Both the position numbers and the translations under genes were made by a program. The notes under the pieces are model-generated. The model had not been told where the DNA came from and ran no database searches. It was given only the letters and a program-made list of their open reading frames with translations. Shown here piece after piece: positions 33,201-49,358 of a DNA stretch of 64,000 bases. Within the stretch, counting starts at the first letter, position 1. Every line of letters begins with the position of its first letter. This DNA is from Microvenator marinus (lineage in GTDB: Bacteria; Myxococcota_A; Bradymonadia; Bradymonadales; Bradymonadaceae): NCBI RefSeq assembly GCF_007993755.1, contig NZ_CP042467.1:3620001-3684000 (forward strand). Reading direction: 5' to 3'.

Positions 33201-34689
33201 CTTGGCTGCAGAATGGGCCCTTGGGGCTGAGCGCTTCTCCCCGCTCGCGGTGGCCGTGATCGGAGGCATGACGACCGCTACTTTCCTGACTCTCGTGTTG
33301 ATTCCGGTGCTCTACGATATATCGGATGATCTCAGCCAGTTTGTGAGCAAGAGGTTGGGGCGCAAGGCCTCCGCATTGGCGTTTATTGGCGTGCTCGTGT
33401 TTCCTGTGTGGGCGAGCGCCGAAACTCCAGTCCTAACCATTGACGAGGCTGTGGCAGCGGCTCTTGAGACGAGTCCGCGTCTCCAAGCCCAGGAGGCTTC
33501 TAAGAAGGCTTCGAGCACCAGGGTTGACCAAGCTAGCCGGCGAAGGCTCCCAAAATTGGACCTGCAGGCCAACTACTCAAGACTCAGTGAGGTAGAACCC
33601 GGGCAGCTCACGCTTCCTACCGCGATGCCAGGTCAGGAGGCGCCGAGTGTGCAATTTGGAGAGGCGATTACCGATATGTTTAAGGTGCGTCTGACGCTTA
33701 CGCAGCCGATCTTTACAGGGTTTGCGGCCAGCGCGGGTCATTCCATGGCTCAGGTTGGTACCGAGGTGGCTCAGGCCCAGGCTGAGCTGACAGAGGCTGA
33801 TATCCGACTTCAGGTGCAGGAAGTCTATCTTTCCACCTTGAGCGCAGAGGCTCTGACGGGTGTGGCAAACGAATCGGTGAGAGTCTTGGAAGGAAACCGG
33901 GAGCGTGTGGCCTTGATGCATAGAGAGGGGCGTGCGAGCGATCTCGACCTCGCCCGTATTGATTCGAGGCTTGCTGAGGCCAAGGTCCAGCAGAGCAAGG
34001 CCCAGGGGCAGGTGTCCCTCCTGAGGGAGACTCTGAGGGTGCTCACTGGCATCGAGGGCGACCACAGACTTGTCAATCCAGAACACGGTGGCGGCGAACC
34101 CTTTGAAGGGGCGTTTGAGAGTGCCTTGAAAAAGCGGCCTGAATTGGTTCTGGCTAGATATCGTGCCGAAATCTCCGAACACCAGATCGATATTGCGAGC
34201 GCCGCACTCTATCCACAGCTCGCTTTTGTGGCCGGATACACCTACGCAAATCCACATGAACGCTATTTTCCTATGCGAAACGAGTTTAACGGCTCGTGGG
34301 ATCTCACTCTCGCGCTGTCGTGGACAATTTGGGATTGGGGCAGCTCTTGGAGTAAGCGTGAGGAGGCTCAGTTTAGTAGGGAGGCCGCTCAATTCGAATT
34401 GAGCGAGCTTGAGCGCGGGACCGAACTCCTAGTCCGGCGACTCTTATTGGACTACCAAAATGCCGGTCGCGATCTCTTAGCCTTGCAGGAGCGGCAAGAA
34501 GTGGCCAAAGAAGGCCTCAGGGTGGCACAAACACTCTATGAGGCGGGCCGAGCATCGCTGACCGACGTGCTAGACGCCGAGCTCGAATACACGCGGGCCA
34601 GCGCTGAGGTTGCCCAAAACACGTTTAGCCAGCATCTGATTCTGGCCAGACTCGCGCGCCAAACGGAGGCTGTGGCGTTCCGCAATTAA
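30262..34689 (+). CDS. RND multidrug-type transporter fused to a TolC-like outer membrane factor
   Basis: A single 1475-residue open frame. Residues 1 to about 1030 are a complete RND pump of drug-efflux (HAE-1) type, with two periplasmic loops, VGMVVDAAVVVLEN in TM4, and NNAIILIDFIRQ in TM10. Residues about 1035-1052 (SALAFIGVLVFPVWASA) look like a signal peptide with an A-S-A cleavage site, after the basic KRLGRK. From about 1053 to 1475 follows a full outer membrane efflux protein (PKLDLQANYSRLSEVEPG, helical hairpins, EAGRASLTDVLDAELEY). Signal peptidase cleavage would release a free duct; if not cleaved, the pump and duct would be tethered. RND-OMF fusions are known in some Bacteroidetes metal pumps. 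The stop codon shares TTAA with the convergent gene. Confidence 0.92.
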   Translation: MSGSSMTEILVANKYLVWTLALAAAIFGTLAYQTLPMQLFPDTAPPLVNVITTYPGASAEDVAERVSRPMEEEFASLEGVVNVKSSSQDNLSIVSVEFHYNREVDLAAVDAQNAISRIRSDLPSEIREPQVLKFSTADRPIITVGVVAEPMTRARTMAEDTFAPHFQRVPGVAAVDVFGGAKESVLVEVDREKSRAYNVPIGRIIEVLKTHNVNVPAGAIRSDASRTGFRIEGEARDLERLRSLPLAQMDASILRLGDIANVSYGALDDDATFGIDGERAIALQVYRTDEANTVEVVHEIIATTEVLKGEYPDVQFLIGEESASFTELSINNLLSNVWQALLLASIIIFLFIGRFKASMVAVVSMPLSYGLTFALMKLSGTEFNMVTLTAVILAVGMVVDAAVVVLENISRKMDEGMPAAQAAIEGVDEVRLAVLAGAATTIAVLLPLLFVPGFVGKTFGPLASILLFAFTSSIAVALTLVPVMSMYTGGAGKLDAFAGRITRPFAWLMEKVQLVYGWLLKGALAHRWLAVVAGFLMLVAGAGLMATRGMDVLPKMDGGSFFVSLQTSPGSSVEETTRVVAEIEKILKEEEEIVKIQSQAGFEPGMKTSSTSGAQGATQGFITVTLTPRTERDETIWDIQERVRGRVSQIPNISTFAVRELGNTSKATTAAPVVVRLSGEDPLVLDQLADDVVRRLGQVPNVVEPVRTWSIDQERESVRVDERRAALLGLNPLGIGQQMMMGTDGIEVGQVRGGLGETTPVRVRYARDGQTKVEDLFDFPLVVANDPGQVVPVRSVVKSVPVVGQSLVTREQFVPTLDVTAFVEGRPLSFVTADVTEAISKMSMPLGYQATIEGENNDLGEAKGGLLGALGISVLAVYLLLVAQLRSWMHPLTIMASVPLSIIGVGLALKLADKSISMPVMVGLILLVGIVVNNAIILIDFIRQAREQGMARQEAVLQSVQTRFRPIMMTSLSTIVGMIPLAAEWALGAERFSPLAVAVIGGMTTATFLTLVLIPVLYDISDDLSQFVSKRLGRKASALAFIGVLVFPVWASAETPVLTIDEAVAAALETSPRLQAQEASKKASSTRVDQASRRRLPKLDLQANYSRLSEVEPGQLTLPTAMPGQEAPSVQFGEAITDMFKVRLTLTQPIFTGFAASAGHSMAQVGTEVAQAQAELTEADIRLQVQEVYLSTLSAEALTGVANESVRVLEGNRERVALMHREGRASDLDLARIDSRLAEAKVQQSKAQGQVSLLRETLRVLTGIEGDHRLVNPEHGGGEPFEGAFESALKKRPELVLARYRAEISEHQIDIASAALYPQLAFVAGYTYANPHERYFPMRNEFNGSWDLTLALSWTIWDWGSSWSKREEAQFSREAAQFELSELERGTELLVRRLLLDYQNAGRDLLALQERQEVAKEGLRVAQTLYEAGRASLTDVLDAELEYTRASAEVAQNTFSQHLILARLARQTEAVAFRN

Positions 34690-36338
34690 GAGGCGAGGCG
34701 CCGCAGCGTTTGGCCACCGCTAAGGGTCGAGACATTCTGCATCCCCATACCATTGAGAATTCGCGCGGCCACGTAGCTTCGCTTGCCTACGGCACACACC
34801 ACCACCGTCTCAACGAGTGGGTCCAACTCATGCATGCGGGCACGGATCTCACAGACCGGGATGCCGATATGCTGGCAAAGCAATGGATCGTCTTCTCGCT
34901 CTGATTGAGACCTCACGTCGATGACCTGTAGGCCTTCGAGGGACGCGTCATAAGGCGCAAAACGCACCAGGCCGGCCATCTGATTGGATGCGGCAAACGC
35001 TGCCATGTGTATCGGGTCTTTGGCGGAACCAAACGGTGGAGCATAGGCGAGGTCCACCCCGGCGAGTTGGTCGACGGTCATCCCGGCAGCAATTGCTGTT
35101 GCGGCAACATCGAGTCGCTTGTCGACACCCTCCCCACCAACTCCCTGCAAACCAAGTACTCGACCCGTCTCTCGGTCATATACAAGCTTCAAGGTAATCA
35201 GCTCAGATCCCGGAAAATAGCTCGCGTGATTCGCGGCGACGATCGTCACAGTGTCTGCCGAAATGCCCAGTCCCCTGGCTCTCTTCTCGCTCAAGCCAGT
35301 GATGCCGGCGTTTCGGCCAAAGACCCGCACGATCGAGGTGCCTGCCACCGCGGGCATCTTCAGTGAGCGCCCTGTCGCGGCGTGTTCACCGGCGAGTCGA
35401 CCGGCTCGGTTCGCGGGGCCAGCGAGCGGCACCCAAGTCTTGCTCTCGGTGAGAGCACACGGATACACGGCGACGTCGCCTACCGCGTAAATATCGGGGT
35501 CTGATGTGCGCATATACGCGTCCACATCAACGGCTCCATTCGTGTGCAACGTGAGGCCGGCCTCGCGCGCGAGCCCAGAGTTTGGACGCACGCCGATACC
35601 AAAGATGACGATATCGGTAGCGATGCGCGTGCCGTCGCTCAGGATCGCTGCACCGACACGCGTATCTTCCTCACGAACCAACTCCACAACCGACCGGCCA
35701 GTGAAAACCTGGACGCCTCGGCGCTCAAGCTCATGAGCAATGGGCAAAGCGATCTCACGATCAAGCAGCGGAAGCACCTGGTCCTTAAGTTCCACCAGGG
35801 AGACCTCCATGCCGCAATCTTGCAGTTGTTCGACCATCTCGAGCCCGACATAACCCGCACCCACCACCAACGCGCGTCGCGCCCTCTGGACGGTCTTTAC
35901 CGAGCAGATCTGGTCCATGTCCTCCATGTTGCGCAACGTAAAGACGTTCGGCGCGTGCACTCCTTCCATACTCGGAAGCACGGGAGAAGCCCCTGTGGCG
36001 ATGATCAACTTGTCGTAAGAGAGCGCGTATTCCTCACCCGTTTTCAGGGATTTGACGTGTACCTTCCGACCCACTCGATCGATGGCGATGGCGCGGCTGA
36101 AGGTCCGGACGTCGATCTTGAAGCGCTCTTTGAAGGTCTCAGGCGAAGCGATCAAGAGTGAATCTCGATCTGGGATCTCGCCGCCAATATGATAGGGCAA
36201 CCCACAGTTCGCGAACGAGACATGCTCATCCTGCTCCAGCATGATGATCTGTGCATTCTCGTCCATTCTTCGGGCGCGGGTTGCAGCAGAAGCACCCCCA
36301 GCGACCCCACCGATAATCACAATCTTTCTTACATCCAT
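34686..36338 (-). CDS. CoA-disulfide reductase with C-terminal rhodanese domain
   Basis: A 550-residue flavoprotein. The N-terminal FAD-binding IGGVAGGASAATRARR is followed by the redox Cys45 in SFANCGLPYHIGGEIP, typical of CoA-disulfide reductases. A second nucleotide-binding GAGYVGLEMVEQL site and the FAD motif (YAVGDVAVY) are present. The last 100 residues are a rhodanese domain with active Cys about 515 in VVVCAVGKRSY. Such fused enzymes reduce CoA disulfide, persulfide or polysulfide with NAD(P)H. GGAAG lies upstream of ATG. Coexpressed with the ArsR-rhodanese gene 30 bp upstream, it suggests sulfane-sulfur or sulfide handling. Confidence 0.9.
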   Translation of the reverse strand: MDVRKIVIIGGVAGGASAATRARRMDENAQIIMLEQDEHVSFANCGLPYHIGGEIPDRDSLLIASPETFKERFKIDVRTFSRAIAIDRVGRKVHVKSLKTGEEYALSYDKLIIATGASPVLPSMEGVHAPNVFTLRNMEDMDQICSVKTVQRARRALVVGAGYVGLEMVEQLQDCGMEVSLVELKDQVLPLLDREIALPIAHELERRGVQVFTGRSVVELVREEDTRVGAAILSDGTRIATDIVIFGIGVRPNSGLAREAGLTLHTNGAVDVDAYMRTSDPDIYAVGDVAVYPCALTESKTWVPLAGPANRAGRLAGEHAATGRSLKMPAVAGTSIVRVFGRNAGITGLSEKRARGLGISADTVTIVAANHASYFPGSELITLKLVYDRETGRVLGLQGVGGEGVDKRLDVAATAIAAGMTVDQLAGVDLAYAPPFGSAKDPIHMAAFAASNQMAGLVRFAPYDASLEGLQVIDVRSQSEREDDPLLCQHIGIPVCEIRARMHELDPLVETVVVCAVGKRSYVAARILNGMGMQNVSTLSGGQTLRRLAS

Positions 36339-36368
36339 TGGTACTTCCTTTGGGGATTGTCCCCATGT

Positions 36369-37040
36369 TTAGACTCGGGCTGCTCTTGTGACCGAGAAGC
36401 CTCGTTGGCGCCATTCATAGACGCTGATAGGCAATCGCCTCGTCCGGATACCGTGCTCCCTAAGGAGCTTGATGCCGTTGATCGAGGTAATACAGAAAGG
36501 GCCCCGGCAGTATACAACGACCGGCACGTTGCGTGCCTTTATCTCAGCAGCTTTTGACTCGATTTCGTGCAACCCGATGTTCTCAGCCCCGGTAATATGC
36601 TCAAATTCGTAGTCATCGGCCGGGCGCAGATCGACCAGCAAGACGCGCCCGGAATTGATCTGCTCCACGAGATCTTCATACTCCTCGTCGAGGATATCGT
36701 TCTCGTCCACGAACTTCTCTTGAACCACCATCCTGGCCCCTGGGTGTACTCGAGACGCGGTCTCCTGCACGCTCAACAACATGGCACGGACCTGGTCCGA
36801 AGCTAGGAAGTAGAGCACTTGTCTGCCTTCCTTACGGCTAACGACGAGGCCAGCTTCGAGCAGAATACGAAGCTGTATGCTGATGTTTGCCACCGGATGG
36901 CCCGCCTGTTCCGCGATGCGTTGTACGGGTTTCTCGCACTGAGCTATCAAGCTCAGAATCGTCCAGCGAAGGGGATTAGAGAGGGCCTTTCCGATCTTGG
37001 CCAGCTCTTTGGTCAGTGTGTCTTGTTGCAAAAGGTCCAT
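36369..37040 (-). CDS. ArsR-family regulator fused to a rhodanese domain
   Basis: A 223-residue protein. Residues 1-95 form an ArsR winged helix (IGKALSNPLRWTILSLIAQ, then AGHPVANISIQLRILLEAGLV). Residues about 120-223 are a rhodanese domain with Cys178 in VVVYCRGPFC and an unusual second Cys (183). Such fusions sense persulfide or polysulfide through the rhodanese Cys (known for related sulfur-responsive regulators). GGAGGATGAG precedes the ATG. A 26-bp near-perfect palindrome at 37098-37123 lies 58 bp upstream and probably is its autoregulatory operator. The CoA-disulfide reductase gene follows. Confidence 0.9.
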   Translation of the reverse strand: MDLLQQDTLTKELAKIGKALSNPLRWTILSLIAQCEKPVQRIAEQAGHPVANISIQLRILLEAGLVVSRKEGRQVLYFLASDQVRAMLLSVQETASRVHPGARMVVQEKFVDENDILDEEYEDLVEQINSGRVLLVDLRPADDYEFEHITGAENIGLHEIESKAAEIKARNVPVVVYCRGPFCITSINGIKLLREHGIRTRRLPISVYEWRQRGFSVTRAARV

Positions 37041-37097
37041 CTCATCCTCCGTCGGAGCTGAGTCGAGTTTCTAGACCTTAGTGGGTATGTTGTCAAA

Positions 37098-37123
37098 GAT
37101 ATTTTAATATGTATTAAAATATC
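37098..37123. promoter_or_regulatory. 26-bp palindrome, likely operator of the ArsR-rhodanese operon
   Basis: Arms GATATTTTAATA (37098-37109) and TATTAAAATATC (37112-37123) are exact reverse complements separated by TG. The AT-rich 12-bp arms fit an ArsR-type dimer site. It is placed upstream of the ArsR-rhodanese start (37040), in the gap before a pair of membrane-protein genes whose 3' end is at 37150. Confidence 0.7.
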
Positions 37124-37149
37124 GTAAGGATGGCTTTACCGTGCCAGAT

Positions 37150-37524
37150 TCAAATGTCTCTCATCAGTTTTCTGAGAAACCAGAATTGCCCAGACCAGAA
37201 GAGTGTCCGAATTGTCATGGCCACTGCAGTCCGCGGTTCGAAGGGCAGGCCCATCGTGATATGGACCCCCAATCCCAAGAGCACGACAAGCGAACCGACC
37301 GCAATTGCGAGAGCAAAGTGAGCGGCAACTTGCTTTTTCAAGAGGGTCAGGATCCCGGTAAGGATGTAGACAAAGCCTGCCGCAAAATTGAAATAGAGGA
37401 CCCAGGGCACCACATTTCCGGCGGCTTCCCAGGATTCAGGCCCCCCGAAAATGACCTTGCCGCCCTCGACAAGCGTCATGACACCAAAGACGAGTGCGGC
37501 AATTCCAAGGATCTTCGTTTTCAT
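37150..37524 (-). CDS. Small membrane protein, four predicted helices
   Basis: A 124-residue hydrophobic protein starting at ATG 37524, which overlaps the previous stop as ATGA. Four helices are visible (around ILGIAALVFGVMTLVEGG, VPWVLYFNFAAGFVYILTG, AHFALAIAVGSLVVLLGLG and a final basic helix FWSGQFWFLRKL). No family was recognised. The operon mate is another four-helix protein, and a TetR-like 22-bp operator lies before that gene. A role in membrane adaptation or transport is possible but unsupported. Confidence 0.72.
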   Translation of the reverse strand: MKTKILGIAALVFGVMTLVEGGKVIFGGPESWEAAGNVVPWVLYFNFAAGFVYILTGILTLLKKQVAAHFALAIAVGSLVVLLGLGVHITMGLPFEPRTAVAMTIRTLFWSGQFWFLRKLMRDI

Positions 37525-37934
37525 GTTTTCCCCCAATACTTGAGGCTCAAGACGCCGGCTAATGAGACCGCTGCGGTCATGGCAATAGCTCCGAAAAGAA
37601 CCAGGATCGGAGGCGCCCCAAAATAGATCTCCGCGAGGATACCGACCGGCATCAACAACCCCACCAGTCCAAGCCCTGCGACGGTCCGGCGCGCCCTCTC
37701 TGTCGCGGCCTCGAGTCTGACGAGTACGAATCCGAGGAGCAGATTTAGGACGGCGAAGAGGTTACCATGGACGTGGGCAAGGCGCGCCTCAAAGTGCTTA
37801 CCGACTGAATAGCTCGCGATCCATGCCTCCTTGTCCGGGTGAAAGTCACGCAGGTAGATGAGTAAGAACCCATAGCCCATGAAGGCTGCCATAGTGAGTA
37901 ATCCGACCCCAATACTATATTTTCCAGTCTTCAT
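37521..37934 (-). CDS. Small membrane protein, four predicted helices
   Basis: A 137-residue protein from ATG 37934, with GGAGGT at good spacing. It has a helix (IGVGLLTMAAFMGYGFLLIYL), a polar loop with HPDKEAW and KHFEARLAHVHGNLF, then three further helices. The His-rich loop H-F-E-A-R-L-A-H-V-H is a conceivable metal or heme ligand set, but no family match is known. It heads a two-gene operon with the next protein. The 22-bp AAAGATAG inverted repeat lies 27-48 bp before its start. Confidence 0.72.
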   Translation of the reverse strand: MKTGKYSIGVGLLTMAAFMGYGFLLIYLRDFHPDKEAWIASYSVGKHFEARLAHVHGNLFAVLNLLLGFVLVRLEAATERARRTVAGLGLVGLLMPVGILAEIYFGAPPILVLFGAIAMTAAVSLAGVLSLKYWGKT

Positions 37935-37960
37935 CGTTGACCTCCAGTTCGCAGCCACAA

Positions 37961-37982
37961 AAAGATAGTAAACGATTACTTT
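37961..37982. promoter_or_regulatory. 22-bp imperfect inverted repeat related to the RND-adaptor operator
   Basis: AAAGATAG (37961-37968), a 6-base spacer, then ATTACTTT (37975-37982). The left arm is identical to that at 29146 and the overall length is the same. The right arm agrees in the last four bases and part of the rest. An inner GTAA/TTAC symmetry is also present. It is 27-48 bp upstream of the membrane-protein gene start at 37934. Confidence 0.5.
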
Positions 37983-37995
37983 ATGAGTTGCCAAT

Positions 37996-38080: not shown

Positions 38081-39310
38081 CTACTTGGTATCGACCTTGA
38101 CCTGGTCAGTGAGGATGGGGATCGCGATCTTGAGTAGCACGGTGTAGATCATGAGCCCGAGCGCCCAGAGGCCCACCATGATCTTCCACTCGACCAGCGA
38201 CGGTGAATACTCCACGATCTCATGCAGGGTGCTCGGGATGAAGCCAGGGATAATCAACCCCATGCCTTTCTCAATCCACACCCCAACAAACGTGATCACA
38301 CACGCCACATTGAGCCACGTCATATGGGTCTTTGCGCGCGGGGCAAGCAGCATCACGGCCGCAATGGTGTTCAGGGCGATGGCTGTCCAAATCCACGGGA
38401 CAAGCCCACTCTTGCCGTGGAGCCCAAAGAAGAGGTACTGCGCCGCCGCCACATGTGAGCCACCCGTGTAGAAGATCGTGAAGAGCTCCGCCGCCAGAAG
38501 GAAGAGGTTCAAGAGCACCGTCACACGCATGACCTTGAGCAAGGTCATGATGGGGCCGTTTCCAAACTTGAAATCACTCAACTTGCGAATGATCTGCAAG
38601 GTTACAATCACAAACGCAGGACCCGACACAAAAGCAGACGCAAGGAAGCGCGGGGCCAAAATGGCGGTGTTCCAGAAGGGGCGGCCGCCAAGACCGCTGT
38701 ACAGAAACGCCGTGACCGTATGAATGGAGACAGCCCAGGCGATCGAGAGAAAAACAAAGGGCAGATACCAGCGCGGATTGGGCTTCTTTCCTAAGAATCG
38801 TGTGTAGAGCAGGTACCCGGCGATATGCGCGTTGATCAGCAGATAGCCATTGAGCACGATCATATCCCAGGTCAGCATCGAGATCGGCCAGTTCAGCCGC
38901 CCAAGCCCCGGAATCATATGCCAGAAGCGGTCCGGCCTCCCAAGGTCAGCCAACACAAAACCCAGGCACATCACAAGCGCCGCCACCGCCAATAACTCCC
39001 CAATAATCACCACGTCGTGCATCTCGTGGTCATCGTAAAGATACGCCGGGATCACCATCATCACCGCCCCCGCGGCGAGCCCCACAAGGAAGGTGAAGTT
39101 CGCGATATAGAGCCCCCACGAGACGTGGTCGGTCATCCCGGTCAGCGCCATACCCTCCACAACCTGATGTGCCCAGGCGTTCGCACCGACAAGCATCAGC
39201 GCGGTCAGGAACGTCATCCACGCGTAAAACGCGCGGCTGCCATCGGTCGCAGCAATGAAAGAATGGAGCAAAAAGCGCGGGTAGCTGACCGCATGTTGTG
39301 TATCACTCAT
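38081..39310 (-). CDS. NrfD/PsrC/DsrP-type quinol-oxidising membrane subunit
   Basis: A 409-residue protein with about ten transmembrane helices. The NrfD/PsrC pattern is visible: SWGLYIANFTFLVGLAAGAV near residue 65-85, DLGRPDRFWHM at about 122, and GGRPFWNTAI at about 210. These subunits exchange electrons between the quinone pool and a peripheral Fe-S protein on the periplasmic side without heme. The two genes upstream encode that Fe-S protein and a tetraheme cytochrome, making a complete quinol:cytochrome module. Start ATG 39310 is 10 bp after the Fe-S stop. It resembles DsrP/menaquinol dehydrogenases more than alternative complex III. Confidence 0.85.
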   Translation of the reverse strand: MSDTQHAVSYPRFLLHSFIAATDGSRAFYAWMTFLTALMLVGANAWAHQVVEGMALTGMTDHVSWGLYIANFTFLVGLAAGAVMMVIPAYLYDDHEMHDVVIIGELLAVAALVMCLGFVLADLGRPDRFWHMIPGLGRLNWPISMLTWDMIVLNGYLLINAHIAGYLLYTRFLGKKPNPRWYLPFVFLSIAWAVSIHTVTAFLYSGLGGRPFWNTAILAPRFLASAFVSGPAFVIVTLQIIRKLSDFKFGNGPIMTLLKVMRVTVLLNLFLLAAELFTIFYTGGSHVAAAQYLFFGLHGKSGLVPWIWTAIALNTIAAVMLLAPRAKTHMTWLNVACVITFVGVWIEKGMGLIIPGFIPSTLHEIVEYSPSLVEWKIMVGLWALGLMIYTVLLKIAIPILTDQVKVDTK

Positions 39311-39320
39311 ACTTCACCCA

Positions 39321-40232
39321 CTACTCGTCGAAGTAATAAAAGAACCGTGGATGTGTCCCAAGCTCTTCTTTGAGAACAAAGACACGCTTATTCGCGAGCA
39401 CCCACCGGATCTCGGAGTTCGGATCCAGAAGGTTTCCAAACACACGTGCGCCCGTAGGACATGCTTCGAGGCATGCCGGCAGCCGGCCCTCACGTGTCCG
39501 ATGCAAGCAGAAATGGCACTTCTCCACCACGCCCTGTGGCCGAATCCGATTGGCCAGATAGGCCTGAACGGGATTGACCTCTTCGGCCGGGATCTCGGGA
39601 CGTGCCCAGTTAAATCGACGCGCGTGGTAGGGGCAAGCAGCCTCGCAATAGCGGCAGCCAATGCACCAGTTATAGTCCACCACCACAATCCCGTCCTTCT
39701 CTTTCCAGGTCGCCTCGACCGGACAGACGTGAACACAGGGTGGATTATCGCATTGTTGGCACTGCACGGGCATATAGTATTTGCCCGGCTCTGGAACAGC
39801 ATCTTCGTAGATAGCCCTGCCATGCTCTAAGTCCATGCTCCCCTGTTTCATCTCCATGACGCGGATGTAGGAGTTATTCGTGGCTCGGTCGTGGTTATTC
39901 TCTTTGTGACACGCTTCCGCACACTTTCTGCAGCCGATACACACGCTCAGATTGAGCGCATAGCCGAACTGCACACCGTCCATGGGTTTGACATCCTTGA
40001 TCGAGACCTCGGCACCATACTCCTTCAAGGTCTCCGCCTCCAGGCGTTTGAGTACCTTGAGCATGTCCTCATCACTGAGCTCTTTATAGTGATTCTGGAT
40101 GAATTCTTCGGCGCTCATCCCTTCCTGGTAGTTAGAGAGCGGGGCAAGGGCGCGGGCAAAAGCGGCCGCACCCAGCGTCGCGCCAAACGCCTTGATGGCT
40201 GTTCGTCTGCTTATCGGGGGCATCTCATTCAT
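39321..40232 (-). CDS. Tat-exported 4Fe-4S ferredoxin-type subunit (DsrO/NrfC-like)
   Basis: About 303 residues. The Tat signal has SRRTAIKAFGATLGAAAFARALA. Four ferredoxin-like Cys sets follow: CIGCRKCAEACH, CQQCDNPPCVHVCP, CIGCRYCEAACP and CHFCLHRTREGRLPACLEACP, sufficient for four [4Fe-4S] clusters. It is the electron-transfer partner of the NrfD subunit. Several starts are possible: ATG 40232 has a well-spaced AAGGG and overlaps the cytochrome gene slightly; ATG 40250 with GAAGGAC is also plausible. The product is periplasmic and carries electrons between the membrane subunit and a cytochrome. Confidence 0.85.
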   Translation of the reverse strand: MNEMPPISRRTAIKAFGATLGAAAFARALAPLSNYQEGMSAEEFIQNHYKELSDEDMLKVLKRLEAETLKEYGAEVSIKDVKPMDGVQFGYALNLSVCIGCRKCAEACHKENNHDRATNNSYIRVMEMKQGSMDLEHGRAIYEDAVPEPGKYYMPVQCQQCDNPPCVHVCPVEATWKEKDGIVVVDYNWCIGCRYCEAACPYHARRFNWARPEIPAEEVNPVQAYLANRIRPQGVVEKCHFCLHRTREGRLPACLEACPTGARVFGNLLDPNSEIRWVLANKRVFVLKEELGTHPRFFYYFDE

Positions 40233-40845
40233 GGTGACCCTTTTCGTCATGATGTCCTTCTTCAAGAAATCGGTCGCGTGGTGGGAAAACTGGCATCACA
40301 GGTTGGAATTTCGGGACATGTGCGTCGTGACAGTGAAGGCATGAGTTGCGCGTACGGGGCCCCTTGGAGAGGTCCCAATATCCTTTCATCCCGCCGTGGC
40401 TGCCGTTGTTGTAGTCTCGCGTCTGTGGGCCGTGACACTGCCCGCAGAGTTGCATCACATCCGCAAAGGCTATCGCGTCGCCATTGGCGAGTCGGAGTTT
40501 GCTGCGGTCGTCTGGGTGATGACAACTCTGGCAGTCCAACGTGCCGTGCTCAAAATTCATACCCATGTGAAACTCTTCGAGCTCCTCGGCCTTTCTCAAG
40601 ACGTCTTTGCCTTCAACATCGAGTGCATGACAGGTAGCGCACGCCACGCCTTTGGCCGTGCCGTCTAGTCGATGGACTTCGGTGCGTGCGCTTCCGAGCC
40701 CGTCAGGTAATACGATGCGCGTTTCAAATTTGGCTTCGGGCGACGATTCCAGGTCCTTCCCGATCTCAAATTTCTCCTTTGCGCATCCGCCCAGAGCAAA
40801 CGCAAAACAAAGCAAGCAGCAAAGATGGATGTGTTTCACAGACAC
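40225..40845 (-). CDS. Tetraheme cytochrome c lipoprotein
   Basis: A 206-residue lipoprotein (FALGGC, Cys21). Four CXXCH heme sites are seen: CATCH (69-73), CQSCH (105-109), CGQCH (134-138) and CLHCH (169-173), with a His-rich tail GHHDEKGHHE. It is the first gene of the operon ending with the NrfD subunit. It could accept electrons from the Fe-S subunit and pass them to the NapB-like cytochrome or other terminal partners. Its extra N-terminal 60 residues lack heme sites. The cytochrome is anchored in the outer leaflet or outer membrane. Confidence 0.87.
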   Translation of the reverse strand: MSVKHIHLCCLLCFAFALGGCAKEKFEIGKDLESSPEAKFETRIVLPDGLGSARTEVHRLDGTAKGVACATCHALDVEGKDVLRKAEELEEFHMGMNFEHGTLDCQSCHHPDDRSKLRLANGDAIAFADVMQLCGQCHGPQTRDYNNGSHGGMKGYWDLSKGPRTRNSCLHCHDAHVPKFQPVMPVFPPRDRFLEEGHHDEKGHHE

Positions 40846-41232
40846 CTCGTTCCAGGATTCTTGGGAGTGTAACGCAAACTTCGTACCTTAATGAAAAAGA
40901 TGCAGGCTTTCAGGTGTTTGTAATTGTTGGTCTGCGATTCCCTGACTGTTTTGCGCGAAATCAGTTCGGAAACGTAGCAGAAAAGTGAGAAAGAGTTCAA
41001 ATGATGGTGATGTTTTGATAGTGTTTTGGCTGGCTTGGGTTGCGACGCATTTTGTGCGCTGTTTTTAGCGCAACGCAAATGATGCGTCTCGGGGTGTGTT
41101 TTATGATTGGCGTCTTTTGCATGCAAAGTAGAAATTGTCTCTACCTTCTGCCGACTTCGATGAATTATGCTCTCTATGGAACATTTCTTGTTACTCGTTC
41201 GGTTTTGCCATGCTCGATTTCAGAGGTCGTGA
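40846..41232. other. 387-bp intergenic region between two divergent respiratory operons
   Basis: This gap holds the promoters of the cytochrome-Fe-S-NrfD operon (minus) and nap operon (plus). The main visible structure is the imperfect hairpin at 41044-41088. No clear FNR or NarL consensus was found by eye. A short frame at 41040-41279 overlapping napD has no sensible composition and is not called. Confidence 0.5.
41044..41088 (+). promoter_or_regulatory. Bulged hairpin in the nap leader
   Basis: GACGCAT (41044-41050) pairs with ATGCGTC (41082-41088), and TGCGCT pairs with AGCGCA across a GTTTTT loop, with TTTG/CAAA between them and two small bulges, about 17 bp in all. It is about 145 bp before napD. 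It could be an RNA leader structure or a protein-binding inverted repeat. Confidence 0.4.
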
Positions 41233-41520
41233 ATGCCCGTCAGTGCACTAGTTGTTACGCTCGATGCAGAGCCCGATAACCGTCAGAAGGCGTTCGACGC
41301 TCTTATGGCTCGGGACTGGTTGACGCTCGGTGAGGCCATTGAGGATGCGCATCTGCCCGTGGTCCTTGAGTCCGATACCCTTAGCCAAGGGGAAGAGCGT
41401 TTCCGAGAGATCTTGGCACTCGAGGGTGTAGTGCATGTAGATGTGGTGATGGTCGACTTTCAGGACGTAGAAGAATTTGAAGAGATGCCTCGGCGCAAGA
41501 AGAACAGGAGACCCGCATGA
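41233..41520 (+). CDS. napD: Nitrate reductase maturation chaperone NapD
   Basis: A 95-residue protein of the NapD family: PVSALVVTLDAEPDNRQKAF, then LEGVVHVDVVMVDFQDVEE with a basic tail. NapD binds the Tat signal of NapA and supports molybdenum-cofactor insertion before export. It immediately precedes napA with an ATGA overlap, the usual order. The start (ATG 41233) is the first in frame after the nap leader. Confidence 0.87.
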   Translation: MPVSALVVTLDAEPDNRQKAFDALMARDWLTLGEAIEDAHLPVVLESDTLSQGEERFREILALEGVVHVDVVMVDFQDVEEFEEMPRRKKNRRPA

Positions 41521-43916
41521 CTATGGATCGACGAACCTTTTCCAAACTCGCCGCGATGAGCGTGGCGACCACCGCGGCAGCTCGGCTCGCACATGCCAAG
41601 GTGCCAGAAAACCCTTCGCAACGGGTCGATCCTAATGGCGTGACCTGGGCAAAGGCACCCTGTCGTTTCTGTGGCACTGGTTGTCATGTTCAAGTGGGTA
41701 CCCGGTCTGGCAAGGTCGTCAGTATTGCCGGTGACGCCAAGGCTGAGGTCAACCGTGGGCTCGCCTGTGTCAAGGGCTATCATGTGGGGTTGATCCTCTA
41801 TGGAAAAGACCGCCTGACACAACCGCTGCTCAAACAAGGCGACCGACACGTTCCTATTTCGTGGGAGCGGGCGATCGATGTGATCGCGCAGCGCATCATG
41901 GCAGACCCGAAGTCCTTTGCCTTCTACGGCAGCGGCCAATGGACGATTCCAGAAGGCTATGCCGCCCAGAAATTCATGAAAGGCGGTCTCTCAAACAACC
42001 ATATCGATCCCAATGCGCGCCTCTGCATGGCATCGGCTGTGACTGGCTTCGTCAGTACGTATGGCGTGGATGAGCCTGCCGGCACATTCACCGACATCGA
42101 CAAGGCGGACGTGGTGATCTGCTGGGGCAACAACCCGGCAGAGATGCACCCGGTCCTCTTCTCAAGACTGATCGACCGACGTGCCCGTGGCGAAAAGATC
42201 ACCCTCATCGATATTGGCACGCGTCGCACCCGCACGACCGACCATGCGCAGCACTATCTGGAGTTTAAGCCGCACACGGACACAGCGATTGTCAATGGCA
42301 TCGCCCACCTCCTGATCAAGAACGGGACCTGGGACAAGGAGTTTGTAGAGAAATTCTGCAATTTCCGAGCACCTTCGGATCCTCCCACCCTGAACGGGAA
42401 GGCTATTACCTTCGAGGAGTACAAGAAGTTCGTCGAGCCCTACACACCTGAGTATGTCGAAGAGTTAAGCGATGTTCCGGCCGCCGATATTCGGCTCCTG
42501 GGCGAGCTCTTTGGCAGGCGCGATCTCAAGATCACAAGCCTGTGGTGCATGGGTGTAAACCAGCACACGCAGGGCACCGCCATGAACCAAATGCTCCATG
42601 GTATCCACTTTCTAAGCGGGCATTTTGGCAAGCCTGGCGACTCCCCGACGAGCCTGACCGGCCAGCCCTCAGCGTGTGGAACGGTTCGAGAGGTCGGCAC
42701 ACTCGCGCACGCGCTTCCTGGTGGCCGTGTGGTCGCCGATGAGCAACATCGCAAGGATGCCGAGGATATCTGGAACGTCAAACCTGGCTCAATCGACCCG
42801 AAACCTGGCTACCATACCGTGTTGATGTGGGAGAAGTTCTCTACTCCCAAAGAGCAAGGTGGGGATATTTCGACCATCTGGGTACAGGTGACCAACCCGG
42901 GCCAGACGCTACCCAACCTCAACAAGCTCTTTCATCCATCACGCAAGCTGAAGGACAAGTTCCTTATCGTCTCCGATGTGTACCCAACGGCGACCACCAA
43001 AGACGCGGATCTTATCTTGCCATCGGCCCTCTGGGTCGAAAAGAACGGCATGACCGGGAACTCGGAGCGCCGCACCCAGCAATGGTTCAAGATGGTGGAG
43101 CCTCCGGGCCAGGCCCGAGACGATGTTTGGCAAACGCTCGCTGTGGCGCGCCGGCTCTTTGATCTCGGGCATCCTGGGATGAAAGATCGCGATGGAAACT
43201 TCATCTTCGACATGAAGGATGAGAGCGGCAAGAGCGTGCCCGTCTGGGATTTTAGGCGTTTCTATGACGTCAATGTGGATGAGCAACTTTTCAACGAGTA
43301 CCGCAAATTCACACCTTACAAGCATAAGAACCTTGCTCCCTATCAGGAGTATGTCAAAGCCCGAGGACTCCGCTGGCCCGTGGTCGAACAGTCAGATGGT
43401 TCTTGGCGCGAGACGCAGTTTCGCTTCACCGAGTTTGATGACCCCTTCGTGAAGAAGGGAGCTGGAATCCAGTTCTATCATTCGGTGACTAAGGACGACC
43501 GCGCCCAGATCTGGTTCAATCCATACATGCCTCCACCGGAGTCACCTGATGCGGACTATCCGTTATGGCTATGTACCGGTCGGGTGATCGAGCATTGGCA
43601 TAGCGGTACCATGACCATGCGCGTAGGGCCGTTGCGGCGTTCGATGCCGCAGGCTTATGTGGAGGTGAACCGTGACGATGCACAAAAGCTCGGAATTCGT
43701 GATGGAGAGGTTGTGGTCGTAGAGTCTAGGCGTGGATCTGTGGAGCTGCCGGTTTGGATCGATGGGCGAGGGAAGCCGCCAAAAGGATCTGTTTTTGTAC
43801 CGTTCTTCGACGAGCGCATCATGATCAACAACGTAACCCTGGATGCACACGACCCGTTCTCGAAGCAGCCAGACTACAAGAAATGTGCGGTCCGGCTGCG
43901 CCGGAAGGGAGCCTAA
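41517..43916 (+). CDS. napA: Periplasmic nitrate reductase catalytic subunit NapA
   Basis: A 799-residue molybdoenzyme, close to the NapA norm of about 830. Tat signal DRRTFSKLAAMSVATTA (RR at 5-6). [4Fe-4S] ligands C49, C52, C56 and C84, with the lysine (K86) that follows. C170 in NARLCMASAVTGF is the expected molybdenum ligand of NapA. Later segments GTAMNQMLHGIHFLSG and TGRVIEHWHSGTMTMR are the bis-MGD binding regions typical of NapA. It reduces nitrate to nitrite in the periplasm. The ATG overlaps napD's stop. Downstream the NapB-like cytochrome follows with 5 bp between. Confidence 0.95.
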   Translation: MTMDRRTFSKLAAMSVATTAAARLAHAKVPENPSQRVDPNGVTWAKAPCRFCGTGCHVQVGTRSGKVVSIAGDAKAEVNRGLACVKGYHVGLILYGKDRLTQPLLKQGDRHVPISWERAIDVIAQRIMADPKSFAFYGSGQWTIPEGYAAQKFMKGGLSNNHIDPNARLCMASAVTGFVSTYGVDEPAGTFTDIDKADVVICWGNNPAEMHPVLFSRLIDRRARGEKITLIDIGTRRTRTTDHAQHYLEFKPHTDTAIVNGIAHLLIKNGTWDKEFVEKFCNFRAPSDPPTLNGKAITFEEYKKFVEPYTPEYVEELSDVPAADIRLLGELFGRRDLKITSLWCMGVNQHTQGTAMNQMLHGIHFLSGHFGKPGDSPTSLTGQPSACGTVREVGTLAHALPGGRVVADEQHRKDAEDIWNVKPGSIDPKPGYHTVLMWEKFSTPKEQGGDISTIWVQVTNPGQTLPNLNKLFHPSRKLKDKFLIVSDVYPTATTKDADLILPSALWVEKNGMTGNSERRTQQWFKMVEPPGQARDDVWQTLAVARRLFDLGHPGMKDRDGNFIFDMKDESGKSVPVWDFRRFYDVNVDEQLFNEYRKFTPYKHKNLAPYQEYVKARGLRWPVVEQSDGSWRETQFRFTEFDDPFVKKGAGIQFYHSVTKDDRAQIWFNPYMPPPESPDADYPLWLCTGRVIEHWHSGTMTMRVGPLRRSMPQAYVEVNRDDAQKLGIRDGEVVVVESRRGSVELPVWIDGRGKPPKGSVFVPFFDERIMINNVTLDAHDPFSKQPDYKKCAVRLRRKGA

Positions 43917-43921
43917 GGCCT

Positions 43922-44695
43922 ATGGACGCCTATACCGCCAGAAAGGCTCTGAATGTGGGATTGCTGATCGTGATGGCCGTGGCGGCCGTTGGTTTCTTTA
44001 TTGGTACTCGACAGGGTGTTGAAGTCACCGGCTATACGTGGTTCGTCGAGCCGGAGAAAAAGCCTGAGAGAGAGTATCCGCCGGCTCTGAGTTATTCGGA
44101 GCGTATGGAGTCTCCGCAACGCATGAACCCGGGCCTACATAGTAATTTTGATGTACTCAGTGCTCAACCTATTCCAGAAGGTGAGGGTGATGCCACCGAC
44201 CCCGCATTGCGTGAGGCTGCTCGTCTGGTGCGGGCTGAGGGACGTGCCTACGAAGGCGCACCGCCCACCGTGCCTCATCCTATCGACCATTCAGGGGATG
44301 CTGCGTGTTTGGTTTGTCACCAAAGTGGGATGCGGATTGCCGGGCGACGGGCACCTGCGATGAGTCATTCAACTTACACCAACTGTACTCAATGCCATGT
44401 CGAGCGTGAGGCAAATCTTCCTTTCGAGGAGTTGAATCCTGACGCTATTCCCTTGGATTCGAGTTTTGAGGGGTTTCGACCGGCACGGGAAGGAGAGCGT
44501 GTTTGGGATGGAGCGCCGCCACAGATGCCGCATACCACACGCATGCGTGAAAATTGTGCCAGCTGTCATGGCCCTCACGGCCCCGAAGGCTTGAGAACCA
44601 CACATCCAGAGCGACAAAGCTGCACGCAATGCCACGCTCCTAAGGCAGACTTCAATCAATTCCCAACCTCGGAGACCGATGAGTTCTGGCGATGA
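43922..44695 (+). CDS. napB: NapB-like cytochrome with duplicated heme module (tetraheme)
   Basis: A 257-residue protein with an N-terminal signal anchor (ALNVGLLIVMAVAAVGFFIG). Four heme sites: CLVCH (129-133), CTQCH (155-159), CASCH (212-216) and CTQCH (234-238). The two halves look alike: GAPP, PH, CXXCH, G-rich stretch, H, CTQCH repeats at about 112-160 and 197-239. Normal NapB has only two hemes, so this appears to be a tandem duplication. It would transfer electrons to NapA. The last 17 bp overlap the start of the ferredoxin gene. The ribosome-binding site is weak. Confidence 0.82.
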   Translation: MDAYTARKALNVGLLIVMAVAAVGFFIGTRQGVEVTGYTWFVEPEKKPEREYPPALSYSERMESPQRMNPGLHSNFDVLSAQPIPEGEGDATDPALREAARLVRAEGRAYEGAPPTVPHPIDHSGDAACLVCHQSGMRIAGRRAPAMSHSTYTNCTQCHVEREANLPFEELNPDAIPLDSSFEGFRPAREGERVWDGAPPQMPHTTRMRENCASCHGPHGPEGLRTTHPERQSCTQCHAPKADFNQFPTSETDEFWR

Positions 44696-45377
44696 CAAGC
44701 TGAGCAGACGCGAGCTCTTCGCGAAGCTTCGGCCAGAGAAGAAGCCCAGAAGCGCTGATTACGAAGAGGTCGCACAGACACCTGCAGCGCTGCCAGAGTC
44801 GAACTTTGATCTCCTCGGCCTCCTCCAGCGCATTGAAGGTAATCAGGACCGCACCGTCAAAAGTCGCGTTATGCCCGTCTTGCGCCCACCCGGAGCGATC
44901 GACGAGACGACTTTCCTGGCCGAATGTACCCGCTGTTTGGCCTGCATCGAAGCCTGCCCTTACGACGCGATAGGACTCGCCGGCCCGCAGCTGCGTGGGG
45001 CCGAAGGGACGCCAGTCCTGCACCCTTTGCAGAGCCCCTGCAAGATGTGCCCGGACACACCGTGTATCACCGCATGTCAAACGCCGCGTGAAACAGGAAT
45101 TCAACCCTCGGGGGTTCTCGTCGCTGGGCGCGGATTTCACATGGGTAAGGCGAGCATCAAAACCTCGGACTGCCTCGCCTATCAGGGAGGGTTCTGCTCT
45201 ACATGCGCCGAGCGCTGCCCGGTGTCAGGTGCTATCGAGGTGAACATGGGTAAGCCAAAGATTGTCCCCAATTTATGTACAGGCTGTGGCATCTGCCATC
45301 ACGTCTGCCCAGCGCCATGGAACGCTATCATCCTAATGCCCGAACTGATGCGCCCCCCTCGTGAGATAAAACCATGA
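44679..45377 (+). CDS. NapF/NapG-like polyferredoxin
   Basis: A 232-residue protein with four cysteine sets: CTRCLACIEACP (about 83-94), CKMCPDTPC, DCLAYQGGFCSTCAERCP and LCTGCGICHHVCP, fitting four [4Fe-4S] clusters as in NapG/MauM proteins. The N-terminus KLSRRELFAKLRPEKK lacks a hydrophobic Tat core, so it resembles the cytoplasmic NapF. A NapH partner is absent. It may help NapA maturation or shuttle electrons. The ATG overlaps the 3' end of the NapB-like gene by 17 bp. Confidence 0.8.
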   Translation: MSSGDDKLSRRELFAKLRPEKKPRSADYEEVAQTPAALPESNFDLLGLLQRIEGNQDRTVKSRVMPVLRPPGAIDETTFLAECTRCLACIEACPYDAIGLAGPQLRGAEGTPVLHPLQSPCKMCPDTPCITACQTPRETGIQPSGVLVAGRGFHMGKASIKTSDCLAYQGGFCSTCAERCPVSGAIEVNMGKPKIVPNLCTGCGICHHVCPAPWNAIILMPELMRPPREIKP

Positions 45378-45688
45378 AACTCCCAGACGTCCACCAGGCA
45401 ATTCTCGATCAAGAGACACTGAGCGCCTATTTCCTAGATCTCGATCAGGCAGCTCAAGTACTCGAGGTACGCGCCAAAGGGCATGAAGCCCTTCGCGCAA
45501 ATGAGTCCACCTTGGATCTCTTGAGAGGACGTGTTCTCTTCGAAGGAAAAGACGTCGCAAGCCTCCAAATACGCTATAACTTTGAAGGTATTGAGTGGTG
45601 GGACACTTTGAGCTGGATCGCAGGAGAGATACGGCTAGTCAGAATCGGGCATGACTGGAGTGAGATTGAAGAATCAACCTCTACCTAA
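45374..45688 (+). CDS. Unrecognised small protein at the end of the nap operon
   Basis: A 104-residue soluble, acidic protein whose ATG overlaps the ferredoxin stop (ATGA), so it belongs to the nap operon. It contains DQETLSAYFLDLDQAAQVLEV and VASLQIRYNFEGIEWWDTLS, the latter aromatic-rich. The last five residues overlap the end of the convergent sensor kinase. No family is recognised. The position suggests an accessory factor, possibly for maturation of NapA or the ferredoxin. Confidence 0.65.
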   Translation: MKLPDVHQAILDQETLSAYFLDLDQAAQVLEVRAKGHEALRANESTLDLLRGRVLFEGKDVASLQIRYNFEGIEWWDTLSWIAGEIRLVRIGHDWSEIEESTST

Positions 45689-47551: not shown

Positions 47552-48856
47552 GTGAAACCAACAATGGACCTAAGCGAAGCCCTACAAAGTGCGTTTCCAT
47601 TCAGGCGCCCCCTCTTACCGTGGGCTGGCTATCGTCTGATCGAGCAAAGCTCGATTGAGGACGTTTGGAATGCGGCTTTGTGTGAGCTAGGGCAAAGTGA
47701 CCGACCCAATCGGCGCACGATTTATATCCATATCCCATTCTGTGCAAATCATTGTCTTTTTTGTGGTTTTTACAAGAATAGGGCGCAAGAAAACCGCATG
47801 GAAGGCTATGTAGACCGACTAATCCGGGAGATGGAACGTCAGGCTCATGGACTCTCCGAGGGAGGACTTGTGCACGCGGTTTATCTCGGTGGAGGAACGC
47901 CCACAGCGTTGGGGGCGGACGAACTCTTTGAAGTGGTCTCGGCTATACGTAGGCTCTTTCCTCTTGCGAATGATTGTGAAATCACCGTGGAGGGAAGGGT
48001 GATTCACTTCACAGAAGAAAAGATTGAGGCAGCTCTAGAAGGGGGAGTAAATCGTTTCTCAATTGGTGTGCAGTCGTTCGACACCTTGGTTCGCAACAAG
48101 CAAGGACGCCGCTCTAGCCGTAAAGAGGTGCTCATGTTCCTCGAATCCCTTTTGGCACGGGACCGAGCAACCGTCGTCTTCGACCTCATGTTTGGTCTGC
48201 CACTTCAAACACGCCAGGTTTGGATGGACGACTTAGAGACTGCAATCGCGTTGAAACCTGATGGGATTGATATCTATTCGCTCGCACTTTTTCCCGGAAC
48301 ACCGCTTTTCAAGGCGATCAAACAAGGTTCCATTGAGCCCGGTGCTTCACGTCAAGAATTGGGCGAGTTCTATGCCATGGGTGTGGAATCACTATCAAAA
48401 GCAGGATGGCTGCATCTCTCAAACTCGCATTTTGCCAGCGGTACGCGAGAGAGAAATCGATACAATATCATGATCAAAGAAGGAGCTGAAACGCTTGGGT
48501 TCGGCTCAGGCGCGGGAGGGGCCATCGGTAGGTACAGCTATCAAAGAGATGCTGATCTCGACGCTTGGTCAACAAGTGTGGACGCAAACACCTCCACAAT
48601 CTCACAACTTTCGATCGCGGACGAAAATGAATCGACACGGGCGATGATCACTGGACAGTTGGAGCAAGGTCGCCTCGACCTGACAAGTGTGATGCGACTC
48701 AGACCTGTGCAACTTCAACTCGCCAAAAAATTGGAGGAGTTCGCTGGAAAGAATCTCATCACCAACCCAGAACCTAGGACTGCGCTTACTCTGGCTGGAC
48801 GGTATTGGAGCACCAATATTCGCGGAGAAATTCTCCAAATCCTTAACATGGAATAG
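47552..48856 (+). CDS. chuW: Anaerobic heme-degrading radical SAM methyltransferase ChuW/HutW
   Basis: A 434-residue radical SAM enzyme. The [4Fe-4S] ligands are C64, C68 and C71 (IPFCANHCLFCGFY). YLGGGTPTAL and EGRVIHF are the next conserved stretches, then GVQSFDTLVRNKQGRRSS, and a HemW-like C-terminal part. Relatives cleave heme under anoxia to the linear tetrapyrrole anaerobilin, releasing iron. The GTG at 47552 has AGGTGATG upstream; the ATG at 47564 is an alternative. Fur-box control and the ChuX- and ChuY-like genes behind it make HutW/ChuW far more likely than HemW. Confidence 0.9.
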   Translation: MKPTMDLSEALQSAFPFRRPLLPWAGYRLIEQSSIEDVWNAALCELGQSDRPNRRTIYIHIPFCANHCLFCGFYKNRAQENRMEGYVDRLIREMERQAHGLSEGGLVHAVYLGGGTPTALGADELFEVVSAIRRLFPLANDCEITVEGRVIHFTEEKIEAALEGGVNRFSIGVQSFDTLVRNKQGRRSSRKEVLMFLESLLARDRATVVFDLMFGLPLQTRQVWMDDLETAIALKPDGIDIYSLALFPGTPLFKAIKQGSIEPGASRQELGEFYAMGVESLSKAGWLHLSNSHFASGTRERNRYNIMIKEGAETLGFGSGAGGAIGRYSYQRDADLDAWSTSVDANTSTISQLSIADENESTRAMITGQLEQGRLDLTSVMRLRPVQLQLAKKLEEFAGKNLITNPEPRTALTLAGRYWSTNIRGEILQILNME

Positions 48857-48860
48857 ACAC

Positions 48861-49358
48861 ATGACAACGACACAAACAACACTTGCACAACATCTTACAT
48901 CACACTTTGATACGGTACTCGAAGTCGTCGCCAAGGAGTTTGACACGACACTGCTTGAAACACTTCGCAACCTGCCTCCAGGCTTTGCAACGGAGCGAGC
49001 TGGAGAGCACTTCGTCGATGTGCTCAGATCGATTGCAACATGGGGGATAGTGACCACGATTGTGCACACCGAAGATATCATCGCTGAATTTGTAGGAGAG
49101 TTTCCTGATGGTTCCATGGGAAGAGGATTCTACAATCTAAAGGCTGAGACAGGATTGACCGGGCATCTTCGCCCCGAGCGATGTGATAAGATCGTATTTC
49201 TGGAGAGACCTTTCATGGGTTTACCTACAGCATCCGTTCTTTTCATCAATCGGGAAGGGGGGGCAATGTTCAAGATATTCTTGCGCCGCAATGAGGCTAG
49301 AGAGCTCGCCCCCGAGCAACTGAGGGCATTCCGTGATCTCGCCGAGAGGGTGAAATGA
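48861..49358 (+). CDS. chuX: Heme utilisation carrier ChuX/HutX
   Basis: A 165-residue protein of the HutX/ChuX family: ETLRNLPPGFATERAGEHFVDVLR near the start, WGIVTTIVHTEDIIAEFVGEFPDG in the middle, then YNLKAETGLTGHLRPERC, and VFLERPFMGLPTASVLFINREGGAMFKIFLRRNE. These cytoplasmic proteins bind heme and pass it to the degrading enzyme. It is 4 bp downstream of chuW and overlaps chuY (ATGA). Confidence 0.88.
   Translation: MTTTQTTLAQHLTSHFDTVLEVVAKEFDTTLLETLRNLPPGFATERAGEHFVDVLRSIATWGIVTTIVHTEDIIAEFVGEFPDGSMGRGFYNLKAETGLTGHLRPERCDKIVFLERPFMGLPTASVLFINREGGAMFKIFLRRNEARELAPEQLRAFRDLAERVK

Follow-up and report, generated by a model that had tools for sequence, protein, structure and literature searches.

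An NrfD/Fe-S/tetraheme cytochrome module as the proposed quinol dehydrogenase of the periplasmic nitrate reductase in Microvenator marinus

The quinol dehydrogenases NapC and NapGH are a non-universal feature of the periplasmic nitrate reductase (Nap), and neither was found above cut-off in the genome of Microvenator marinus. Here we analyse the nap locus of this bacterium in a stretch of 64,000 nucleotides (positions 3,620,001-3,684,000 of the 5.85 Mb single-contig genome), hereafter the window, in whose coordinates all features are given. The locus carries napD, napA and a four-heme napB (NapB4) on the plus strand, opposite to a minus-strand module encoding a tetraheme lipoprotein (TH4), an iron-sulfur (Fe-S) protein with a twin-arginine translocation (Tat) signal and an NrfD-type membrane subunit. 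We consider it likely, with a probability of about 80%, that this module is a dedicated menaquinol dehydrogenase for Nap, passing electrons from menaquinol through NrfD, four [4Fe-4S] clusters, TH4 and NapB4 to NapA. We infer this path, its direction and its partners from gene linkage and cofactor content, and menaquinol is assumed as the donor from general knowledge. An initial annotation had already placed the six genes; their coordinates, families and divergent layout were borne out by open reading frame (ORF) calls and by Pfam and NCBIfam searches, but two further genes were missed, one encoding a NapG/NapF-like ferredoxin (44679-45377, plus strand) and one a protein of 104 residues (45374-45688, plus strand).

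The NrfD/DsrP-type membrane subunit (38081-39310, minus strand), the proposed site of menaquinol oxidation, matched Pfam NrfD with 136 bits and passed the NCBIfam DsrP model (444.7 bits, cut-off 350), whereas it fell far short of the NrfD equivalog (34 bits, cut-off 347.6). In a profile alignment to the solved ActC (6f0k), D122, S144 and D149 correspond to ActC His139, Ser164 and Asp169, and E347/K348 align with Glu394/Arg395; the accessible text of PMC8076601 names these ActC residues as quinone-site and channel/gate positions. The quinone-site residues were invariant in the alignment of relatives, in which numbering is one lower as the first codon was trimmed, and Y68 was assigned to the site by spacing only. 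At 19 of 20 DsrP1 positions listed in the part of PMC8076601 available to us, the same residue was found in the window NrfD at one of four offsets, chosen after the fact, whereas 5000 shuffled sequences averaged 2.7 and never exceeded 10; this comparison is with listed positions and not with a DsrP sequence.

The second subunit, a DsrO/NrfC-like protein predicted to carry four [4Fe-4S] clusters (39321-40265, minus strand), scored 194.5 bits with DsrO, just below the cut-off of 200. Its 16 cysteines were kept in the aligned rows apart from one tyrosine in Flammeovirga and one truncated row. A Tat-like signal, SRRTAIKAFGATLGAA, was recognised by eye; the start codon is uncertain and the first ATG lies a few codons in. 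The third gene, TH4 (40225-40845, minus strand), would encode the electron carrier of the module. It contains four CXXCH motifs and an LGGC lipobox (by eye), and eight histidines are invariant among 35 relatives, which fits four bis-His hemes. Among 70 homologues a crude test found a lipobox in 15, an N-terminal hydrophobic stretch only in 50 and neither in 5. Compared by Foldseek (E 0.001 or better) and by VIA (Z of at least 2), the predicted TH4 fold (pLDDT 75) matched nothing, a result that is uninformative either way.

The two operons are separated by a divergent intergenic region of 387 bases (40846-41232) between TH4 and napD, in which no FNR-type site was found at two or fewer mismatches. 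The napD-like chaperone gene (41233-41520, plus strand) was weakly supported (21 bits against a Pfam NapD cut-off of 28), and its position is conserved in relatives. The product of napA (41517-43916, plus strand), the catalytic subunit with a Tat signal, scored slightly under both equivalog cut-offs (837 bits for TIGR01706, cut-off 930.55; 869 bits for NF010055, cut-off 904), and the NapA models were by far its best-scoring models. The third gene (43922-44695, plus strand), previously described as NapB-like, does belong to the NapB family (Pfam NapB 35.7 bits, cut-off 25.1; profile match to the solved NapB 3ml1_B, E 9e-7) and consists, more exactly, of the diheme NapB unit duplicated in tandem: its two halves align with a score of 78, and the highest score among 300 shuffles was 42. 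Eight histidines are invariant among 33 relatives of this four-heme NapB, fitting four bis-His hemes, and an N-terminal hydrophobic segment was read as a membrane anchor.

The absence of NapC and NapH, noted initially for the locus, extends to the whole genome, in which no NapC, NapH or NarG was found above cut-off. The only NapC/NirT-family match is NrfH, directly beside the pentaheme nrfA; NapH gave three weak matches, none of them near nap, and NarG no match at E 1e-20. The genome does encode a separate cluster resembling alternative complex III (ACIII), which holds its other NrfD.

The linkage between the module and nap was examined in two sets of genomes. A census of 377 Myxococcota genomes was drawn by NapA (at least 60% identity) and can thus reveal NapA without NrfD. 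NapA was present in 60 genomes, and in 54 of these NrfD lay on the same contig no more than 12 kb away, half of them divergent and half on the same strand upstream (27 each), so that the adjacency of the two operons is kept in related genomes. Four of the six remaining genomes carry NrfD on another contig. In one genome (G019) nap is bordered by the genes for TH4 and the Fe-S protein, the second of which is cut off by the end of the contig (L032), and in another (G264) NapA itself starts at a contig end. NrfD (at least 59% identity) was found in 65 of the 377 genomes. Both proteins occur in 57 genomes, NapA only in 3 and NrfD only in 8 (Fisher p 8e-55), and the linkage is far beyond chance; an NrfD operon occurring mainly without nap, the outcome that the initial annotation had named as speaking against its proposal, was not what we observed. 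Two of the eight NrfD-only genomes (G055, G053) carry an octaheme gene next to the module and, in addition, a more distant NapA, four (G257, G261, G189, G306) have 7- to 13-heme cytochromes, and in G209 and G283 no partner was found in the stretch read. Among the 60 genomes with NapA, NapC was above cut-off in none and NapH in three (G311, G304, G206); NapC matches of 235-240 bits in G269, G063 and G206 were below cut-off.

A second scan, of named genomes, used the NrfD alignment and yielded at least 80 loci; being drawn by NrfD, it cannot show NapA without NrfD. A strong NapA (more than 1100 profile bits) was present in 50 of the 80 named loci listed, all 50 with NrfD and the Fe-S protein. 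Here and below, locus counts apply to the matches listed. With partial NapA included, 56 loci had NrfD and the Fe-S protein: 26 in Planctomycetota, 12 in Verrucomicrobiota, 11 in Myxococcota, 2 in Pseudomonadota (as labelled), 1 in Sumerlaeota and 4 unplaced. Named strains with the operon include Rhodopirellula, Archangium violaceum, Adhaeretor mobilis and Flammeovirga kamogawensis (Bacteroidota), the last with napD-napA-napB4-TH4-FeS-NrfD all in one direction on a plasmid. For a gene inventory, 16 relatives including Flammeovirga were combined with the 50 named loci to give 66 nap loci, of which at least three are counted twice. NapH was found in none of them, NrfH in 1, NapB4 in 62, a NapG-like gene in 40 and the 104-residue protein in 55.

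Gene order has changed repeatedly around this pairing. The 79 NapA-NrfD pairs comprise 52 divergent, 16 with the module upstream, 8 with it downstream and 3 convergent, and at least 13 changes of arrangement were placed on the NrfD tree with adjacency retained. In a quick tree, the NrfD clade that includes the window (80 rows, SH-aLRT 100) has 66 rows beside NapA, 8 at contig edges, 5 beside large multiheme cytochromes and 1 with none of these; the long branch of Flammeovirga lies outside the main clade. Tree labels are rough: five rows of a second nap type bearing NapGH pass the NapA threshold and were printed as 'NapI', and they form a separate clade outside the 66. NapA and NrfD distances correlate (r 0.84, n 70, none of 2000 permutations as high), a correlation that cannot separate linkage from common descent.

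In the proposed mechanism, menaquinol would be oxidised at the periplasmic side of NrfD, and electrons would reach membrane-tethered TH4 by way of four [4Fe-4S] clusters in the Tat-exported subunit. The duplicated NapB, itself anchored, would accept them and hand them to the [4Fe-4S] cluster and Mo-bisMGD of NapA. NapA would reduce nitrate to nitrite, which a separate NrfHA would then reduce. A three-subunit module of the DsrJOP/NrfBCD kind would thereby stand in for NapC and NapGH. As presented in the available text of PMC8076601, ion translocation by NrfD-like subunits has been proposed for the family. That NrfD translocates ions here and makes this Nap electrogenic is a tentative extension, which we hold to be less likely than not. 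The broader picture is equally speculative: a widespread further class of Nap might have an ion-translocating DsrP-type NrfD complex for its dedicated menaquinol dehydrogenase, conserving energy at quinol oxidation without a bc-type complex, with NapGH displaced, a non-exported NapG decaying, and the module shared among nitrate, octaheme and large multiheme reductases.

Several observations weigh against a simple replacement of NapC or NapGH. About a dozen close NrfD relatives adjoin other multiheme cytochromes or contig ends. The second nap type (L034, L204-L207) combines TH4-FeS-NrfD and NapA with NapGH; closer reading identified a WD40 protein in L206 and, in L204, NapG and NapH together with a diheme NapB. 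The module is thus not always a replacement, and the initial statement that it occurs in place of NapC or NapGH holds here and in most relatives, which have no NapC or NapH above cut-off, but not for this second type. The ACIII-like cluster of the genome could feed cytochromes, and the contact between TH4 and NapB is one that we infer. The partners of the module are varied. In L192 (7705-9840) and L193 the order is TH4-FeS-NapA-17-heme cytochrome-NrfD, with NapA inside the module. Sister NrfD proteins adjoin octaheme cytochromes resembling hydroxylamine oxidoreductase (HAO), and in L109 (5432-12704) the genes for NapA, four-heme NapB, TH4, Fe-S protein, NrfD and an HAO-like octaheme cytochrome all run the same way, resembling an operon for the reduction of nitrate to ammonium in which a single quinol module is shared. 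Four loci (L172, L178, L179, L180) have TH4-FeS-NrfD beside 7- to 13-heme cytochromes without NapA; one 13-heme protein among these had a weak MtrC/MtrF-like match, which makes extracellular electron transfer possible. This variety suggests a portable quinol-to-periplasm unit which, in the clade of the window, is mostly tied to Nap.

Other roles for the module were weighed against this assignment. NapB might receive its electrons from the ACIII-like complex or from a general pool of cytochrome c, leaving the NrfD module as a neighbour with a different task; an ACIII-like complex is encoded in the genome, and the supply of Nap by Qcr in Campylobacter jejuni is an experimental precedent (PMC6195509, as far as its accessible text goes), but this would leave unexplained why module and nap have almost always stayed next to each other while their arrangement changed at least 13 times, and we regard it as improbable. 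We judge it quite improbable that the module mainly serves nitrite reduction by an octaheme or NrfA-type enzyme and lies beside nap as the two steps run together. The HAO-like neighbours of sister modules and the joint operon of L109 fit such a role, and for related clusters PMC10732223, in the section available, prefers a reading as nitrite reductase; however, an octaheme match and an NrfA match were each found in only 1 of the 66 nap loci, and the NrfA of M. marinus has its own NrfH elsewhere in the genome.

The overlooked ferredoxin offers a further route, in which it would pass electrons to NapA via an unrecognised membrane partner with the NrfD module as an auxiliary. The cluster does include one nap-type ferredoxin, though without NapH; it scored 105 bits with NapG (cut-off 269) and 53 bits with NapF, also under cut-off. 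A NapG-like gene occurs in 40 of the 66 nap loci, and NapGH and NrfD are found together in the second nap type. Against this, the hydrophobic stretch after the twin arginine, present in NapG adjoining NapH, is missing in most NapG-like proteins of the window nap type (exceptions are L087, L088, L093 and the second NapG of L100; the search motif matched the wrong place in some rows, L205 among them). Several copies of this type are shortened, and in 26 of the 66 loci none was detected. Having lost its export signal, the NapG-like protein probably functions in the cytoplasm, like NapF. With no export segment, no NapH and a gene shortened or undetected in many relatives, we set this very improbable route aside. 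As for a DsrJOP-like sulfur module next to nap by chance, the DsrP model was passed and DsrO nearly so, and nearby ORFs (34686-37040) are CoA-disulfide-reductase-like and ArsR-rhodanese-like. No dsrMK adjoins the module, TH4 has four hemes against three in DsrJ (PMC8076601, accessible part), and it is nap that the module consistently adjoins in other genomes, which leaves a sulfur role next to negligible.

As a proposed menaquinol dehydrogenase for Nap, the module can be compared with several known systems. Its three-part architecture is that of Escherichia coli NrfBCD, in which, according to the consulted portion of PMC12285233, a multiheme cytochrome, a four-cluster [4Fe-4S] protein and NrfD carry quinol electrons to a periplasmic reductase; here, by contrast, the terminal enzyme would be NapA with NapB instead of NrfA, the cytochrome has four hemes instead of five, and NrfD is far from the NrfD equivalog. 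DsrJOP of DsrMKJOP is similar in the DsrP and DsrO scores and in the residue pattern described for DsrP1, but differs in the three hemes of DsrJ and in the link to nap seen here. DsrM and DsrK were not found among the neighbouring ORFs; the rest of the genome, and dsrAB, were not searched. The nap operon types given in the available text of PMC13223375 are napEDABC, napDAGHB, napCMADGH and napAGHBFLD. With NapC- or NapGH-dependent systems the window shares napD, napA, the NapB domain and a NapG/F-like ferredoxin, and it differs in lacking NapC and NapH, in the duplicated NapB and in the NrfD module. The nap cluster of Caldithrix abyssi likewise has no NapC and encodes another quinol-oxidising complex; there, however, this is a Rieske/cytochrome b complex, and NapGH and NapM are retained (PMC5317091, in the part accessible to us). 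Compared with ACIII (pentaheme ActA, the ActB fusion and ActC to ActF), the module has three genes only and does not qualify as one.

A similar NrfD-containing cluster downstream of Nap was reported for two metagenome-assembled genomes, OFTM8 and OFTM33 (PMC10732223, section available), and contigs of isolates with these names (L044, L050) share that arrangement. Related clusters were read there as a novel nitrite reductase or respiratory complex, and replacement of NapC or NapH is not discussed in section 10 of that paper. In term searches of the text available, NrfD appeared nowhere in the Nap review PMC13223375 and Nap nowhere in the NrfD review PMC8076601; beyond PMC10732223, we recognised no paper on a Nap-linked NrfD module in the open-licence literature, as far as its texts were accessible. 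The electron path, called unusual at the outset, would be so against this literature, though the gene arrangement is widespread. If the module does feed Nap, many nitrate reducers among Planctomycetota, Verrucomicrobiota and Myxococcota would be missed by pathway searches based on NapC or NapGH, and the route may pump ions. As named strains carry the operon, whether Nap respiration via a complex of this kind can be electrogenic is open to experiment. According to the accessible part of PMC7188933, nitrate serves as an acceptor for Persicimonas caeni and Bradymonas sediminis, yet that paper also records a negative result for nitrate reduction in P. caeni.

The conserved 104-residue protein encoded downstream of the ferredoxin had no Pfam or NCBIfam match. 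Seven residues are invariant in 35 relatives and the AlphaFold model has a pLDDT of 86, and the protein may be an unnamed Nap accessory protein. Fold matches to the secretion chaperones EagT6 and SciW, to DcrB and, in Foldseek, to PsbP-like proteins were too weak for naming (best Z 6.5).

Beyond the NrfD gene, the minus-strand region 34686-37994 encodes, besides the CoA-disulfide-reductase-like and ArsR-rhodanese-like ORFs mentioned above (labels partly by eye), two small membrane proteins without a family. An ORF of 1475 residues (30262-34689, plus strand) begins as an AcrB-type RND pump (residues 7-1019) and continues in the same frame as a TolC-like outer-membrane efflux protein (stretch at 1283-1466), with a signal-peptide-like stretch between the two parts (by eye). 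On the other side of the locus (47552-49358, plus strand), the gene of a radical SAM protein precedes that of a ChuX/HutX-family member, and the two form a heme-utilisation pair.

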